From positions 1 through 24,362 of IMG/VR virus record IMGVR_UViG_3300009001_000093: a stretch of DNA of 24,362 nucleotides. One strand, 5' to 3'. Of this stretch, positions 8,493 to 17,578 are shown piece by piece. This DNA comes from a virus. The position numbers and the translations under genes are program-made. Positions within the stretch are counted from its first letter, which is position 1. Each line of letters begins with the position of its first letter. The notes under the pieces are model-generated. The model ran no database searches. It was not told the DNA's origin and saw only the letters and a list, made by a program, of their open reading frames with translations.

Positions 8493-8912
8493 TTATGCTA
8501 TTTTTGCATATACTTTAAAAGAATTATTCCTTAGGTTCTCTACCTGAATGTTTAAACTTTTATCAATGCCATCCTCACTATCAAATTCATCAAAGGGTGT
8601 ATCTACACTCTTACCAAATACGCCACCATATCGTTTTAGTGGCAGGCTTAGATTACCAGATTCTGGAAGTTCTTCGGGCATATCGAAACATAGTCCAATT
8701 CTCTCCAAAAATCCTTGCAATTGATTTACTGCATTTTCAGGAATAAGATACTCCCTATCTGCAATAGAACCAACAAAAGCATTTACTCTTTTTAATACAT
8801 CATCGTTTTGAATGTCGTAAGGATCAGAACCGCCGTGTTGGTTAATCGAAATAGAATTTCCAACCTTTGATCCTGGAGCGTCCTCAGACATAAACTCTTT
8901 ATAAGATTTCAT
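8493..8912 (-). CDS. Small protein with capsid-targeting-like N-terminus
   Basis: A 139-residue protein starting MKSYKEFMSEDAPGSK. The first ten residues closely resemble the T4 internal-protein capsid targeting sequence (MKTYQEFIAEA in T4 IPII as I recall it), including the Glu after which the prohead protease gp21 cleaves. The rest is soluble and mixed in structure, with DREYLIPENAVNQLQGFLERIG near the middle and a beta-rich C-terminal end (DKSLNIQVENLRNNSFKVYAKIA). ATG 8912 is preceded by a weak GGAAAG. Packaging into the head followed by protease trimming is inferred from the N-terminus and location. Confidence 0.72.
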   Translation of the reverse strand: MKSYKEFMSEDAPGSKVGNSISINQHGGSDPYDIQNDDVLKRVNAFVGSIADREYLIPENAVNQLQGFLERIGLCFDMPEELPESGNLSLPLKRYGGVFGKSVDTPFDEFDSEDGIDKSLNIQVENLRNNSFKVYAKIA

Positions 8913-10565: not shown

Positions 10566-10573
10566 TATTTATC
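10566..10573 (-). promoter_or_regulatory. Possible late promoter (GATAAATA)
   Basis: Minus-strand GATAAATAG overlaps the stop of the gene at 10569 and opens a 71-base gap before the Ig-like virion gene. It matches the T4 late octamer at 7 of 8 positions. It would give a leader of about 60 bases that includes the AGAGGA ribosome binding site. Confidence 0.4.
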
Positions 10574-11693
10574 TATTTAGATACTGTTGGAGACCACGAT
10601 CTGTAACGTGTTTGACTGAACTTGCTGCTCTATGAAGGGCTACGGCAGGTTTATCTCCACGTTTGATGAACTGATTATACAATTTTGATGCAGCATCATA
10701 CTCTTTTTTATATAGTTTCTTCTGTGTGGATGTAAGTTGTTTTGGAAATAAAAACTTAAAAAAGTTTTCATCTATTTCATTTTCTAGACTTTCATTTTTA
10801 GGCACACAATTTGGAACAATCTTGTTACCCTTCTTTTTAGTGCCAACTTGTTTATGAGTATCCCAACAGGCTTCATCATGTTGACGGCCAACAGGATCTT
10901 TGTCCTGATTCTTTTTATCTTTTTCTAATGACTCTATAACATAACCTACTGGTTTGTATGTTCGATATCCTCTAAAATCTTTACCAAGTTTTTTACCAGC
11001 CTTCTTTAATTTTTTTATTTCTTTATCTTGGTCGCGACTATTTCCCTTGAATACTATTTTCCAACCCTTTGGGTCTTTCATAGCAACAGCAAAACCAGTG
11101 CTTGTCATACGAGATTCTTCTATAAATTCTTTTAAAGATTTTACACTCATTGCCTTCTGTAAGGCTTTAAACACTGTCTGTCCTTGTTTGAACTTTTTGG
11201 GTAAACCTCTCTGAAACGATGTGTAATCGTTGTCTTGGGCAGCCTTTCTCATCTTAGATGCTGACATACCAGTTACTCCTTCTGTGTCTGGGTCTCTTTC
11301 ACCAGCACTTATGACTCGGATACTTTTGAACTTGTAGTATCCGTGTCTTGCCTTCTTTCCATTGTAAGCGTTTAGTAGTTTTTCAAACTCACCAACTCGG
11401 TCTGAACCGACCACCATAACCACATCGGTATAATTTTCTTTATATAGATTGACCATAACATCTATGGCCGTTTTTACTTTATCTGTAGATATGCTTCGTG
11501 CATGAATGGGAAACATAGCTTTCATTATAGAAACTTTACTTCTAAAGTTTAGAGGATTCTTCTTTGCATCTTGTGACTGACTCGCATAGATACGATAGTT
11601 TCTGTTTGCCTTACGAGTTTGATCCATGAGTTTTTCATGGCCAATAGTCGGCGGGTTAAATCGACCAAAACTAAATGATATAGATTTTGCCAT
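10569..11693 (-). CDS. Nucleotidylyltransferase (NMNAT/cytidylyltransferase-like) fused to phage head modules
   Basis: A 374-residue fusion. Residues 1-180 form a Rossmann-type nucleotidylyltransferase: GRFNPPTIGHEKL carries the (H/T)xGH active-site motif, VVMVVGSDRV a central strand, and GMSASKMRKAA the second, ISxTxxR-like phosphate-binding motif. Such enzymes transfer AMP or CMP to a phosphate substrate such as nicotinamide mononucleotide; the substrate here cannot be told. At 182-195, MSVKSLKEFIEESRM looks like an internal capsid-targeting or cleavage signal. A Lys-rich domain follows, then a module with CWDTHKQVG and VPNCVP that recurs in marine phage proteins, and a C-terminal helical domain. 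ATG 11693 shares a base with the preceding stop (TAATG). A capsid-packaged NAD-related enzyme is possible but unproven. Confidence 0.82.
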   Translation of the reverse strand: MAKSISFSFGRFNPPTIGHEKLMDQTRKANRNYRIYASQSQDAKKNPLNFRSKVSIMKAMFPIHARSISTDKVKTAIDVMVNLYKENYTDVVMVVGSDRVGEFEKLLNAYNGKKARHGYYKFKSIRVISAGERDPDTEGVTGMSASKMRKAAQDNDYTSFQRGLPKKFKQGQTVFKALQKAMSVKSLKEFIEESRMTSTGFAVAMKDPKGWKIVFKGNSRDQDKEIKKLKKAGKKLGKDFRGYRTYKPVGYVIESLEKDKKNQDKDPVGRQHDEACWDTHKQVGTKKKGNKIVPNCVPKNESLENEIDENFFKFLFPKQLTSTQKKLYKKEYDAASKLYNQFIKRGDKPAVALHRAASSVKHVTDRGLQQYLNR

Positions 11694-13718: not shown

Positions 13719-14975
13719 TTAACCCTTGACCCAGTTTTTATCTACAGTAAAATTATTTGTACTAAACTCTAACCTATCCACCAGTTTCGTTGCTTTACCG
13801 ACATGATCGATTGCCACAAAACCTTCTGGAGCTGTTACTTTGTATCCGTTGGGTGTTCTTATAAATGTGCCTATGTTCTCTGCCCTTTCTAACTTTTTGA
13901 TGATTAGAGTTTTAGCAGTTTGTAAAGTTATGTAAGTTGCGATAACATAATACAAATCTTTTTTATATTTATTATATTCGGAAAGTCCATCCTTCTTTAT
14001 TTGTTCCCACTTTTTCTTTCCTGCGGCCGATTTGACACTTTTTATCTTCTTATTCAGGCGTTCCTCATAGTATTTGCCAAAAAATTCTAACACCTTTTTT
14101 GTGTTTTCTATCTTTTGACCACCACGAATATAAGAGTTTAGAAATATTTTCATCGTTCCGCCGGGTGTCCATTCGTTTTTTGCTTTAACATCTTTCTCGA
14201 TAACACGAAGATAATTAGATGCCTTTTTCAAAGAACCTGATGCCATGTTCAATACTTTTTGAAACTGTTTAGCCTCAGCAGAAGTAAACTTAACATTGCC
14301 CGATGTGTCTTTAAAGGCTGCATCAATAGACCAGACGTTTCGTGACTTGGCTAACGATTTAGCATTAGCCCCAAACTTAGCCTTCATACTGTCCATTGTC
14401 TTGCCACTGTATGTCGTATGCCAAACTACACCAATCTTTGCTGCTTGAATAGTATTAGCGAGTTCAGATACTAATGGCACTGCATATGTAATTGTGTTTG
14501 GTGTAAAGATAACGGAAGCATCACCACCAACCTCTGTTGTCTTTAGATCGTCCTGTGTGTAGAGTAGATCGCCCTGCCAAACACCTGGTATTTTAAGTTT
14601 CTTAAAATGATCTAATGCAACGTGAAGTTTTGGTCCAGGACCACCAGGATGATTCTTATCAATGTCTGCATGAGTATAATTAATTAATGGTCCAACTCGA
14701 CCACCTTCTTCTTTTGGTACATTGAAAATTGCCTTTGTGCCAACAAAGAACTTTCCATTCTCAGGATTAGTTCCTGCAAAGATAGCGGGTGCACCATCCC
14801 ACTTCACAGTTACATTCATTTTTCTTTTACTGTAACCTTGAAGCATATCACTTAATGATATAAGAAATGATATGGCGGTCTTGCCACCAGACACACCATT
14901 ATTAATAATCTCATCTTCTAGATGTTCTAGGTGAGTGTTCTTATCTTCTGTTAGAAATTGATTAAAGTTATTCAT
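13719..14975 (-). CDS. Nucleotidyltransferase/ligase-like protein (DUF6267-like) with capsid-targeting-like N-terminus
   Basis: A 418-residue protein. The motif VKWDGAPAIFAG (KWDG at residues 58-61) matches motif I (KxDG) of covalent nucleotidyltransferases, where the Lys takes AMP or GMP. GVWQGDLLYT (about 131-140) fits motif III, and APEGFV (382-387) with KATKLVDRLEFS (394-405) fits motifs IV and V of RNA/DNA ligases. About 240 mostly helical residues separate motifs III and IV, unlike compact ligases. The first residues MNNFNQFLTEDK resemble the T4 capsid targeting sequence with a gp21-type LxE cleavage site. I recall a related phage family called DUF6267. ATG 14975 has no clear ribosome binding site. 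Activity, substrate and head packaging are inferences. Confidence 0.75.
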   Translation of the reverse strand: MNNFNQFLTEDKNTHLEHLEDEIINNGVSGGKTAISFLISLSDMLQGYSKRKMNVTVKWDGAPAIFAGTNPENGKFFVGTKAIFNVPKEEGGRVGPLINYTHADIDKNHPGGPGPKLHVALDHFKKLKIPGVWQGDLLYTQDDLKTTEVGGDASVIFTPNTITYAVPLVSELANTIQAAKIGVVWHTTYSGKTMDSMKAKFGANAKSLAKSRNVWSIDAAFKDTSGNVKFTSAEAKQFQKVLNMASGSLKKASNYLRVIEKDVKAKNEWTPGGTMKIFLNSYIRGGQKIENTKKVLEFFGKYYEERLNKKIKSVKSAAGKKKWEQIKKDGLSEYNKYKKDLYYVIATYITLQTAKTLIIKKLERAENIGTFIRTPNGYKVTAPEGFVAIDHVGKATKLVDRLEFSTNNFTVDKNWVKG

Positions 14976-14981
14976 ATATTT

Positions 14982-16496
14982 TTAAGAAAGTTTTATAAAC
15001 GGAGCACTAAATTTAGAATTGGATAAAGCTAATAATACTTCTTCTCGTACAAATTCCTTTTGTTTTCCTTTTATGTTATATAAAATTTGCAGTCCATAGT
15101 ATTTAGAATACCTCCAGCTGGCACCATCACGGCCCTCTAGATTGGTAGCTTGTCTTTTAAAATCATCTTTTGATATTTTTGATCCTGATTCTAAACTAGA
15201 ATACCAAGTATACATATCATCTAACATACCCTGATGTTGTTCTGGATTTAAAGCCATTTGTTTTACTTCGGAAGTAGGAGTTGATGTTTTAATTTTTAAA
15301 TCGGATAAAATTCCGTCTAAAGGACCTTGAGATAGTTTTCCCAAATTGGCATTTGTTCCTTTTATTTCACTTTGCCAACTAGAAACTCCATCGGTACTAA
15401 AGGTTCTAAATTGTTGTTTAAATCTTACACCATTCATTTCAAAAAGTAAATAAACATCTTTACCAGACCAAATATCTTTTGAAGCAGATTTAATTTCATA
15501 ACCTTTATAATTAACATCTCTCTTCTTTTCTCCCATATTAAATAAATCTAAATGGGCATTTTTTACAGATTTCTTCAAAGACATTCCAACAATCAAAGAA
15601 TCATTTATTTTTCCTAAAAGATACTGATTCAATTCTTCTAGTGAATTTATTTTGTTTAGATCGTTAGATAACTGAGCTGAAGTTACAGAAGAATCAAAAG
15701 CCCAGATATCAGCCGGAGACCATTTATTTTCGTTAGAAAAAGGAACCTTTAATTTTTTATTCAGTTCTTTATACTTTTTATAGATAAGATTTACCATACT
15801 AGATCCTCTATGAAAAATATATTTTTTATTAGGTTTAAGATATCTTTTGAATGTAGAATCCTTTGTCCATAAATTAGCTAAGGTCGTAGAAGATTGCACC
15901 CAATCTATTCCCATTTTATTTAAAACATTATCATCACTATCGGTAATATCAAAACTATTACTAAATTTTTTAATATTAGACCTTACATAATTGTCATTTA
16001 TAGGTTTGTGTCTATTGTGTTGTACTGCTGCCAAATAAACACACTGAGCAGATTCTCCTAAATCTGTTGCTGCAGCACCTGCACCCGATCCTCCTGTAGA
16101 ACCAAATTCAGGAGTTTTTTGTAGTAAAATATCTGGAATAAAAACCTCTTGTCGAGACTGGCCCAATACTCCATTATATCCTAAAGAACCTGTCCATCTC
16201 ATTAATTCCGATTTAAAATTATCTTGTTTAGCTACAGTGTTTAAATTACTTTTATAAAATTGTTTTGATGCTGAAGAATTCCAATCTTTTCCATTCCAAA
16301 AAACAATAGATTTTATTTTAAATTTTTTATTCCAATCAGAAGATTTATATCCAAATTGTTCTAATTCGGCAACCCAAGATTTTGCTTGATTAGGAGGAAC
16401 CATTGCAAAGAATTCATCATTTAAAAACTTATTCATCAAAATACCAATACGTTCTGGTTTGCGTTGCAATTCTTCTTTTAACTTTAACGCGGCCAT
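14982..16496 (-). CDS. AT-rich gene for a large protein with nuclease-like D...SLK signature
   Basis: A 504-residue protein of no family I can name. Its middle has KWSPADIWAF (residues 258-267), then IVGMSLKKSVKNAHLDLFN (302-320), the spacing of an Asp followed by (S/E)xK as in variant PD-(D/E)xK nuclease folds. A preceding helix with Glu148 (LGESAQCVYLAAVQH) could give the extra acid. Other parts are mixed: an N-terminal helical domain (1-105) and a C-terminal basic domain. Base composition is far more AT-rich than its neighbours: sampled 60-base lines at 15421, 15961 and 16261 have 23-25% G+C, against 43-50% in lines at 14521 and 17221. That suggests recent acquisition. ATG 16496 has only a weak ribosome binding site. 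Confidence 0.72.
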   Translation of the reverse strand: MAALKLKEELQRKPERIGILMNKFLNDEFFAMVPPNQAKSWVAELEQFGYKSSDWNKKFKIKSIVFWNGKDWNSSASKQFYKSNLNTVAKQDNFKSELMRWTGSLGYNGVLGQSRQEVFIPDILLQKTPEFGSTGGSGAGAAATDLGESAQCVYLAAVQHNRHKPINDNYVRSNIKKFSNSFDITDSDDNVLNKMGIDWVQSSTTLANLWTKDSTFKRYLKPNKKYIFHRGSSMVNLIYKKYKELNKKLKVPFSNENKWSPADIWAFDSSVTSAQLSNDLNKINSLEELNQYLLGKINDSLIVGMSLKKSVKNAHLDLFNMGEKKRDVNYKGYEIKSASKDIWSGKDVYLLFEMNGVRFKQQFRTFSTDGVSSWQSEIKGTNANLGKLSQGPLDGILSDLKIKTSTPTSEVKQMALNPEQHQGMLDDMYTWYSSLESGSKISKDDFKRQATNLEGRDGASWRYSKYYGLQILYNIKGKQKEFVREEVLLALSNSKFSAPFIKLS

Positions 16497-16500
16497 AACT

Positions 16501-17565
16501 TTACCAAGTAGGTGTGTTGTTGAAAGATATCTGAGGTTCTAAATTCAAAAACTGTATTAGTCTTTGCCAGTTATTACCAATGTATGCAATAACCTTCTTC
16601 AACATTTTTTTGATGTATGTTACAAACTTATTATATACTCTTTTGATCTTATCAAGAACTGCCTCTGTAAGTAGATCACCTTCGATGGTGTCAAGTTCTT
16701 CTTGCATATTCTTTAGGCCAAGACCGACTGCACTGTAGATAGAATAGAATCCAGTTTTCTTTGTGATTCTCGTATTGGGATCTACTTTCTTTTGTGACCC
16801 AGATTTAAATCTTGCTTCAGGAACAACTCGACTAGAAATCTTTTTAACATAACCCTTGTCCTTAAAAGCATCATGAACATTTGCCTGATCGCCGGTCCAA
16901 TCCGTAACTAGAAAATACTGTGCGGCACCTACATTAGTTTGACCAAACTTCTGTACACCGGTCATTGCTTCAAATGTAAAGTGGTAGGCAAACTCTTTAT
17001 TCTTTGAGAAAATTGATCTAAGGTCTTTCTTAAATTCTTCGTGAATCTTGTTTGTTTTATTAATCAATTCTGATTTCTGGTTCTTGACTAACTCTCTAGC
17101 GTTACCCTTAACATTAGGCACGGTCGTTGACATCATAGAATTAAATTGACTTTCTAATTTCTTGATGGCGCCGTCAATAGGTATATTACCAGAACTACAA
17201 GCAGCATAGAATGTAGCAGTTGCTTCTGACTTACCACCACTCATCAACTGAGCACCACTACCAGTCTTTAGAGATATTCTTCTAGTACCAATAAGAAAAT
17301 CAGTCTTAGGTGTTTTGGTTGCACCTGGTGCTTTACCGCCAGGAAAATATGATGCCCAATCGGGTGTAACATCGTAGGCATTTTTGGGCATTGCACCCTT
17401 GCCTGTAAGATTTAAATTTTTAACAATTTTTTCTCCGGCATCAGGAGAAATCTTTTTATCTTTAGCCGTGTATGAAGGTCCACCGGCCGCTGAAACAATA
17501 ACTCGTTCCATTTCAAAGGCAGCAGAAGTTGCAGCCTCTGTCAAGTGCTGTTTAAAAGTTTTCAT
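16501..17565 (-). CDS. Capsid-targeted-like protein with nuclease-like TD...ISLK signature
   Basis: A 354-residue protein. It begins MKTFKQHLTEAATSAAFEME, strikingly like the T4 capsid targeting peptide with a possible gp21 site after LTE. Residues 88-108 read TDFLIGTRRISLKTGSGAQLM: Asp89 followed by S-L-K at 98-100, the layout of a PD-(D/E)xK-like active site, with Glu19 as a possible extra acid. The C-terminal 60 residues contain a second LLTEA and amphipathic basic helices (KIKRVYNKFVTYIKKMLKK). No Shine-Dalgarno sequence precedes ATG 17565; an AATAAATA octamer ends 5 bases before it. A packaged nuclease or DNA-binding protein is my inference, and the homologous family's function is not known to me. 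Confidence 0.75.
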   Translation of the reverse strand: MKTFKQHLTEAATSAAFEMERVIVSAAGGPSYTAKDKKISPDAGEKIVKNLNLTGKGAMPKNAYDVTPDWASYFPGGKAPGATKTPKTDFLIGTRRISLKTGSGAQLMSGGKSEATATFYAACSSGNIPIDGAIKKLESQFNSMMSTTVPNVKGNARELVKNQKSELINKTNKIHEEFKKDLRSIFSKNKEFAYHFTFEAMTGVQKFGQTNVGAAQYFLVTDWTGDQANVHDAFKDKGYVKKISSRVVPEARFKSGSQKKVDPNTRITKKTGFYSIYSAVGLGLKNMQEELDTIEGDLLTEAVLDKIKRVYNKFVTYIKKMLKKVIAYIGNNWQRLIQFLNLEPQISFNNTPTW

Positions 17566-17570
17566 AAGGC

Positions 17571-17578
17571 TATTTATT
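17571..17578 (-). promoter_or_regulatory. Candidate late promoter (AATAAATA) giving a leaderless message
   Basis: Minus-strand AATAAATAG lies between the gp41 stop and ATG 17565, leaving only GCCTT between octamer and start codon. The spacing is identical to the perfect octamer before GTG 2851. It marks the switch from replication to virion genes, where a late promoter would be expected. Confidence 0.5.

Follow-up and report, generated by a model that had tools for sequence, protein, structure and literature searches.

Two adjacent nuclease-like gene families and a DUF6267 partner in a candidate late, apparently head-targeted unit of marine T4-like phages

The window analysed here is a 24,362-base virus record (positions 1 to 24,362 of IMGVR_UViG_3300009001_000093) from a T4-like marine myovirus, kin of Pelagibacter phage HTVC008M and Methylophilales phage Melnitz. 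Two adjacent genes, separated by four bases, encode nuclease-like proteins of 354 residues (16501..17565) and 504 residues (14982..16496); these and all window features given below lie on the minus strand. The 354 gene opens the unit, and the 504 gene is flanked by it and by a gene for a 418-residue DUF6267 protein (13719..14975). The original prediction had noticed in both proteins a Glu in an early helix, an Asp and a later Ser-Leu-Lys (SLK) strand, had read this as the layout of divergent PD-(D/E)xK folds, and had proposed a cut-and-seal set of virion enzymes together with the ligase-like neighbour. Both open reading frames (ORFs) were found at these positions with the motif strings KTD89FLIGTRRIS98LK100 and PAD263IWAF...GMS306LK308K, and in both structural models the Glu belongs to an early helix, a strand begins right after the Asp, and SLK lies in a later strand or at its end.

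Conservation in the 354 family was determined from 67 full-length members, reduced to 42 non-redundant sequences. The retrieval patterns included neither the Asp nor SLK, so these residues were not preselected. E20 (codon 17506..17508; helix 15-26), D89 of the KTD motif (17299..17301; the putative metal-binding Asp), S98 and K100 were present in 42/42 sequences and L99 in 40/42 (S98-L99-K100 codons, 17266..17274). The family thus follows the E...D...xxK scheme, with Ser replacing the usual D/E ahead of xK. The AlphaFold2 model of the 354-residue protein (predicted local distance difference test, pLDDT, 84; predicted template modelling score, pTM, 0.72) has the helix, central sheet, helix core of the PD-(D/E)XK fold. 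Compared with solved structures, it matched HinP1I (Z 10.0 over 185 residues, root-mean-square deviation 4.3) and MspI (Z 9.8, 195 residues, 4.6), followed by apo HinP1I (Z 9.0) and HhaI (Z 7.0); weaker rows included the PD-(D/E)XK enzymes Hjc, RecE, MutH, Sau3AI and RecU. Using Foldseek, MspI (7.4e-4) was the sole match below 0.001. From its match to HinP1I, MspI and HhaI and its invariant E20, D89, S98 and K100, the 354-residue protein is very probably a PD-(D/E)XK nuclease, as had been proposed for it.

The HinP1I, MspI and HhaI enzymes combine a helix carrying the Glu, an Asp ahead of a strand and an xxK on the next strand, and the same layout is present in the 354-residue protein. The common fold extends over 164-195 residues (Z 7 to 10). 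The phage protein differs from these enzymes in the Ser that precedes xK, in its extra C-terminal helices past residue 300, in its targeting-like N-terminus and in being phage-borne beside a ligase-like gene. No sequence match to the HinP1I, MspI or HhaI families was detected using Pfam or a PDB profile search.

Palindromic 4-mer counts were compared with expectation. GATC was avoided in HTVC008M (83 versus 405 expected), in the part of Melnitz analysed (2 versus 103) and in contigs carrying the 354 family, and more mildly in the clade of the window (238 versus 429) and in the 504 set (2180 versus 2823); HTVC008M also avoids TCGA (2 versus 121) and CGCG (1 versus 68). GATC avoidance does not clearly follow the gene, and no conclusion on specificity was drawn from it. 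No methylase was seen among the ORFs of the window, which is a fragment. In Melnitz-3 (L012:3808-5025), an annotated HhaI-type modification methylase is located several genes upstream of the 354 homologue and upstream of recA. A restriction-modification pair was considered for this methylase and dropped, as no such annotation was seen in HTVC008M or in the window.

For the 504 family (phrog_1462), 78 members were reduced to 65 non-redundant sequences. S306, L307 and K308 (codons 15573..15581) and D263 of the PAD-IW motif (15708..15710) were present in 65/65 and E148 (16053..16055) in 64/65; the scan pattern demanded W.P.D, so D263 was partly preselected, and SLK and E148 were not. W.P.D and SLK were also retained in all nine homologues checked from phage records. 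In the alignment check suggested with the original prediction, the Asp and Lys of both families were thus conserved, and the 504 family carries the acidic residues and the lysine expected of PD-(D/E)XK enzymes. Its AlphaFold2 model (pLDDT 82, pTM 0.71) places E148 within helix 136-160. The suggested structure prediction and fold search bore fruit for the 354 model, but the 504 model matched nothing solved: the fold search produced nothing beyond low-score rows (Cas12k, Z 3.4; PX domains), and in BFVD all matches up to an E-value of 0.001 were to phage proteins that are uncharacterised or unnamed, with cyanophages the source of many. Judged by its conserved residues, the order of its structural elements and the gene slot that it shares with the 354 family, the 504-residue protein is probably a nuclease as well, with appreciably less confidence. 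Its assignment to the PD-(D/E)xK class is supported by the conserved E, D and SLK but not by a fold match.

Because D-x(6-45)-SLK also occurs in 82 of the 654 other ORFs of at least 200 residues in the fetched loci, the motif taken by itself is weak evidence, and it is conservation in the alignments that makes the signature real in each family. Profile-profile comparison detected no homology between the families, and their relationship was rejected at that level. The distance from the Asp to SLK is 8-10 residues in the 354 family and 37-47 in the 504 family. Both families thus conserve the proposed signature but are not detectably homologous; common ancestry of the two signatures is not confirmed, and what they share is best described as a resemblance.

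Functional names were sought in Pfam, PHROGs, NCBIfam and PADLOC (the last for the 354 family only), and none was obtained for either nuclease. Matches to ATP synthase D, plexin and a phiKZ internal head protein fell under the cut-offs and were disregarded, and PDB profile searches with both nucleases and DUF6267 gave chance matches only. In the annotations examined, all three proteins are labelled hypothetical, virion or unknown protein.

Family scans yielded at least 530 confirmed relatives for the 354 family and at least 487 for the 504 family. Gene neighbourhoods were counted after excluding 18 loci (duplicate contigs, the window's own copy and annotated phage records), near-identical contigs still being included. 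For 87 genes of the 354 family, DUF6267 was found within 200 nucleotides (nt) downstream in 40 and within 2.5 kb in 19 more (59 in total); 12 of the remaining genes reach a contig end, and 5 of the other 16 have DUF6267 just upstream. Similarly, among 84 genes of the 504 family, DUF6267 follows within 200 nt in 41 and within 2.5 kb in 18 more (59 in total), while 8 reach a contig end and 17 are without it. Adjacency to the ligase-like gene is genuine, as predicted, and recurs across loci. Besides the window, six contigs carry both families, and two of these (L001 and L002) are closely related to the window. Thirteen phage records were each searched over their full length: the 354 family was found in three, the 504 family in nine, both in none, and neither in T4; DUF6267 was present in 11. 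Since possession of a nuclease was the ground for choosing the twelve records other than T4, the information here lies solely in the mutual exclusion and in the DUF6267 count, 11 of these twelve. The two families are usually alternatives for one slot ahead of DUF6267, and the window phage has both.

The G+C content at third codon positions (GC3) of the 504 gene is 0.18, compared with 0.23-0.38 in the thirteen other window ORFs measured; because it lies below these, a recent arrival of this gene between the 354 and DUF6267 genes is suggested. DUF6267 has matches in 468 phage records, and the carriers include phages of cyanobacteria, SAR11 and Methylophilales. In genome contigs and plasmids, zero matches to the 354 family were found, which speaks against a bacterial origin; five matches to the 504 family were found in genome contigs, all of them metagenome-assembled genome or single-cell contigs. 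Three individual loci were also recorded. In Microcystis phage Mel-JY01 (L014:5851-6912), a 354-family gene occurs in a record without a DUF6267 match, and its N-terminus is not targeting-like. Tandem 354-family genes are present at L025 (3862-4992 and 5001-6068), the extra copy retaining KTD and ISLK and lacking the AQLMSGG stretch. In Pseudoalteromonas phage XG4 (L017:5272-6837), the 504 homologue sits inside a virion gene cluster, right after a large-terminase-like ORF and ahead of a tail-tube-like ORF, both named by reading.

The DUF6267 protein (Pfam E-value 1.5e-116) starts with MNNFNQFLTE and carries K58-W-D-G, QGD at 134-136, EG[FY]V at 384-387 and K397. In 51 sequences, K58, D60 and G61 were present in 50 and QGD, E384-G385 and K397 in all. 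The order KxDG, QGD, EGxV, K is what we take to be the expected motif scheme of ligases, and DUF6267 follows the motif order, KxDG first, of the covalent nucleotidyltransferase ligases. It resembles ATP- and NAD-dependent ligases and T4 RNA ligases in these ordered motifs and differs from them in lacking a significant profile match; the motifs make it a possible ligase. Families of ATP-dependent DNA ligase, NAD-dependent ligase and RNA ligase were undetectable in eight of nine marine records tested, the exception being S-CREM1, which has an RNA-ligase-like gene; the T4 control was positive for both ATP-dependent DNA ligase and RNA ligase. The cut-and-seal proposal is thus backed by the recurrent pairing of the nucleases with DUF6267, but the identity of the sealing partner is indicated by ordered motifs, with no profile link. 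No paper on DUF6267 was found in the literature searched.

Upstream of the 354 gene, 13 nt before its start codon and overlapping the helicase stop, lies AATAAATA (17571..17578), which matches the cyanophage late-promoter consensus NATAAATA (PMC2984593). Excluding nine loci and duplicate upstream stretches, the late motif was found within 90 nt upstream of 31/57 genes of the 354 family and 48/77 of the 504 family, versus 66/421 other ORFs, 9/99 DUF6267 genes and 0/73 helicase genes. Because the motif is enriched ahead of the nucleases and is found for few DUF6267 genes and no helicase gene, a late unit appears to start at the nuclease gene.

The capsid targeting sequence of T4 comprises ten residues, with positions 4 and 7 acting in targeting and 8 and 10 in processing (PMC9026906). 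The first ten codons of the 354 gene (17536..17565) encode MKTFKQHLTE, a capsid-targeting-like propeptide by the strict pattern. This pattern was matched by three of the 25 window ORFs tested, namely the 354-residue protein, DUF6267 and a 139-residue protein; on T4, it recovers the internal head proteins IPII and IPIII and misses IPI. For the family test, L004, L023, L024, L102, L182 and ORFs open at the 5′ end were excluded and the sets then made non-redundant. A loose pattern matched 30/43 proteins of the 354 family (0.3 expected from shuffling), 37/74 DUF6267 proteins (0.9), 23/55 cytidylyltransferases (0.3) and 14/67 proteins of the 504 family (0.5), with 0/54 helicases, 0/29 2-oxoglutarate (2OG) oxygenases and 2/27 UvsX proteins as controls; shuffled expectations overall were 0.1-1.2. 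A second N-terminal signal, roughly LQ-YV[RK]Q[LI][KNR]P..E, was seen at IMG/VR loci in several proteins from both nuclease families whose N-termini are not of the MKxFxxFLxE type, and may serve for targeting in a different phage lineage.

These N-termini invite comparison with the T4 internal head proteins (IPI, IPII, IPIII and Alt). MKTFKQHLTE of the 354-residue protein and MNNFNQFLTE of DUF6267 resemble MKTYQEFIAE, the start of IPII and IPIII, at positions 4, 7, 8 and 10. The T4 cargo consists of an ADP-ribosyltransferase and small internal proteins, whereas here it would be nuclease-like and ligase-like; the 504-residue protein of the window, in contrast, has no such targeting signal, and neither do 53 of its 67 relatives. 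In the annotation of S-SCSM1, from whose virions 45 proteins were identified by mass spectrometry (PMC9602691), a 504 homologue and the adjacent protein, similar to nicotinamide mononucleotide adenylyltransferase (NMNAT), are labelled 'virion protein'. Cytidylyltransferases have been reported from the virions of S-SM1 and S-CREM2 too (PMC3037559, PMC10665884). The predicted virion location of the products of the unit is supported by this label for a 504 homologue, by the N-termini of the 354 and DUF6267 families and by the promoter motif ahead of both nuclease families.

From high to low coordinates, the minus strand of the window encodes a DNA polymerase, a 375-residue and a 342-residue protein, a UvsX-like recombinase, a 2OG-Fe oxygenase-like protein, a small protein and a gp41-type helicase, followed by the 354-residue protein, the 504-residue protein, DUF6267, DUF5824 and cytidylyltransferase-like proteins; the polymerase, UvsX and oxygenase were named by reading and by synteny with annotated phages. 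A comparable order with a single nuclease is found in HTVC008M, Melnitz and cyanophages. One cytidylyltransferase/NMNAT-like protein of the same cluster (10569..11693; phrog_3041/395) has kin in cyanophage virions, and the 139-residue protein (8493..8912), with the N-terminus MKSYKEFMSE, provides the third strict capsid-targeting-like match. At 335-1135 and 3-338, two genes resemble, by reading only, a CsgG-like lipoprotein of curli secretion and a curlin-repeat protein; curli-type genes have been reported for pelagimyophages (PMC7029224).

Cyanomyoviruses are reported in a 2010 review to lack denA, ndd, denB and the g30 ligase, and the review suggests that their breakdown of host DNA may follow a route not yet described (PMC2984593). 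The reading that we moderately favour is that the nucleases are late-made, head-packed metal-dependent endonucleases that are ejected and cut host DNA, while DUF6267 seals nicks in the phage DNA. Both nucleases would be synthesized late, packed into the phage head and ejected with the DNA into the next host. The ten-residue propeptide of the 354-residue protein would target it to the head core and be removed by the prohead protease, and E20, D89 and S98-x-K100 would form its catalytic site. The 504-residue protein would represent a second nuclease family, unrelated or very distant, that does the same job, most relatives having one family. Once ejected, the nucleases would cut host DNA in the role of denA and denB in T4, and DUF6267 from the same unit would seal the phage DNA as the missing ligase. 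Of this reading, the analysis itself shows the fold and conserved residues of the 354-residue protein, the conserved residues of the 504-residue protein, the common slot and the promoter and N-terminal signals; virion location has support from homologues, and nuclease activity, ejection, the host DNA substrate and ligation are inferred. The role proposed to be common to DenA/DenB and the window nucleases is to start the breakdown of host DNA, and the T4 genes are those reported absent from cyanomyoviruses. The gene for T4 DenA adjoins the RNA ligase gene rnlA. DenA is not known to travel in the head, nor to be a PD-(D/E)XK enzyme.

Several results weigh against a head-packed, ejected, host-cutting kit. 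Neither Foldseek nor VIA-align gave a PDB match for the 504 model, the targeting-like N-terminus is missing from most of the 504 family as described above, and profile comparisons of DUF6267 with T4 ligases, PDB chains and Pfam ligases gave nothing significant. GCGC and CCGG occur at expected counts in the window, so that a HinP1I- or MspI-like specificity with self-avoidance was not seen. The late motif of the window, at 13 nt from the 354 start, would leave a very short leader. In HTVC008M, NATAAATA is missing from the 90 nt upstream of the nuclease gene, and the motif precedes only 5/11 expected late genes and 1/8 expected early genes; in the same genome, the loose N-terminal pattern is not enriched (9/196 coding sequences; mean of 4.2 and maximum of 12 after shuffling) and nothing matches the strict one, 196 of 198 features having been translated because two cross borders of fetched stretches. 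The S-SCSM1 DUF6267 is a short form, distant from the nuclease and not labelled 'virion protein'. Finally, the authors of the S-SCSM1 study warn that non-structural proteins could be carry-over (PMC9602691), and those of the S-CREM2 study do likewise.

The main rival, which we consider unlikely, is a late recombination or packaging nuclease that replaces T4 gp49 (endonuclease VII); it would resolve junctions or nicks for packaging, DUF6267 would seal, and nothing would be ejected. The endonuclease VII family was undetectable in 9/9 marine T4-like records and matched in T4, the unit adjoins uvsX and the gp41 helicase, and a late-promoter motif upstream of the nuclease genes would suit this role too. 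The resolvases Hjc and RecU are among the 354 fold matches (Z 4.5 and 3.0), but restriction enzymes head these matches, well over the resolvases, and neither the capsid-targeting-like N-termini nor the virion label of a homologue would be expected for a resolvase. Less probable still is an ejected nuclease directed not against the host chromosome but against competitors or defences such as plasmids, prophages and co-infecting phages. Dedicated counter-defence factors are reported among the T4 internal proteins, and two exchangeable, fast-diverging families with a tandem 354 copy (L025) would fit an arms race; however, the frequent pairing with DUF6267 and the presence in phages of cyanobacteria, SAR11 and Methylophilales suggest a basic role, and PADLOC gave no convincing match for the 354 family. 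That these are inert internal head proteins which keep the nuclease fold for a scaffolding or DNA-condensing role is very improbable: T4 IPIII is reported to be mildly involved in head assembly, but near-complete conservation of these four positions (E, D, S, K) across 42 sequences of one family and 65 of the other is unexpected for dead enzymes.

Beyond a resemblance of motifs, the locus thus presents a unit that is late and apparently head-targeted, in which a ligase-like partner accompanies nuclease-type proteins of two exchangeable families. No published report of a nuclease-DUF6267 system was found in the mainly open-access literature searched. The two nucleases and DUF6267 are named candidates for two gaps in the cyanomyoviruses, the nucleases that degrade host DNA and the DNA ligase. 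Hosts are known for the isolates HTVC008M and Melnitz, which makes the idea directly testable, and a phage that packs a nuclease with its own DNA would also pose the question of what keeps such a cargo silent. In its boldest form, which we advance tentatively and with well under even confidence, the proposal is that the heads of marine T4-like phages infecting SAR11, cyanobacteria and methylotrophs contain both a restriction-type nuclease, drawn from either of two unrelated and interchangeable families, and a ligase of a new family; on ejection, the nuclease would break the host chromosome ahead of all phage gene expression, and the ligase would seal nicks in the phage DNA. If this is true, the head-carried cut-and-seal kit would provide the cyanomyovirus group with both the route for degrading host DNA and the DNA ligase that it is reported to lack.

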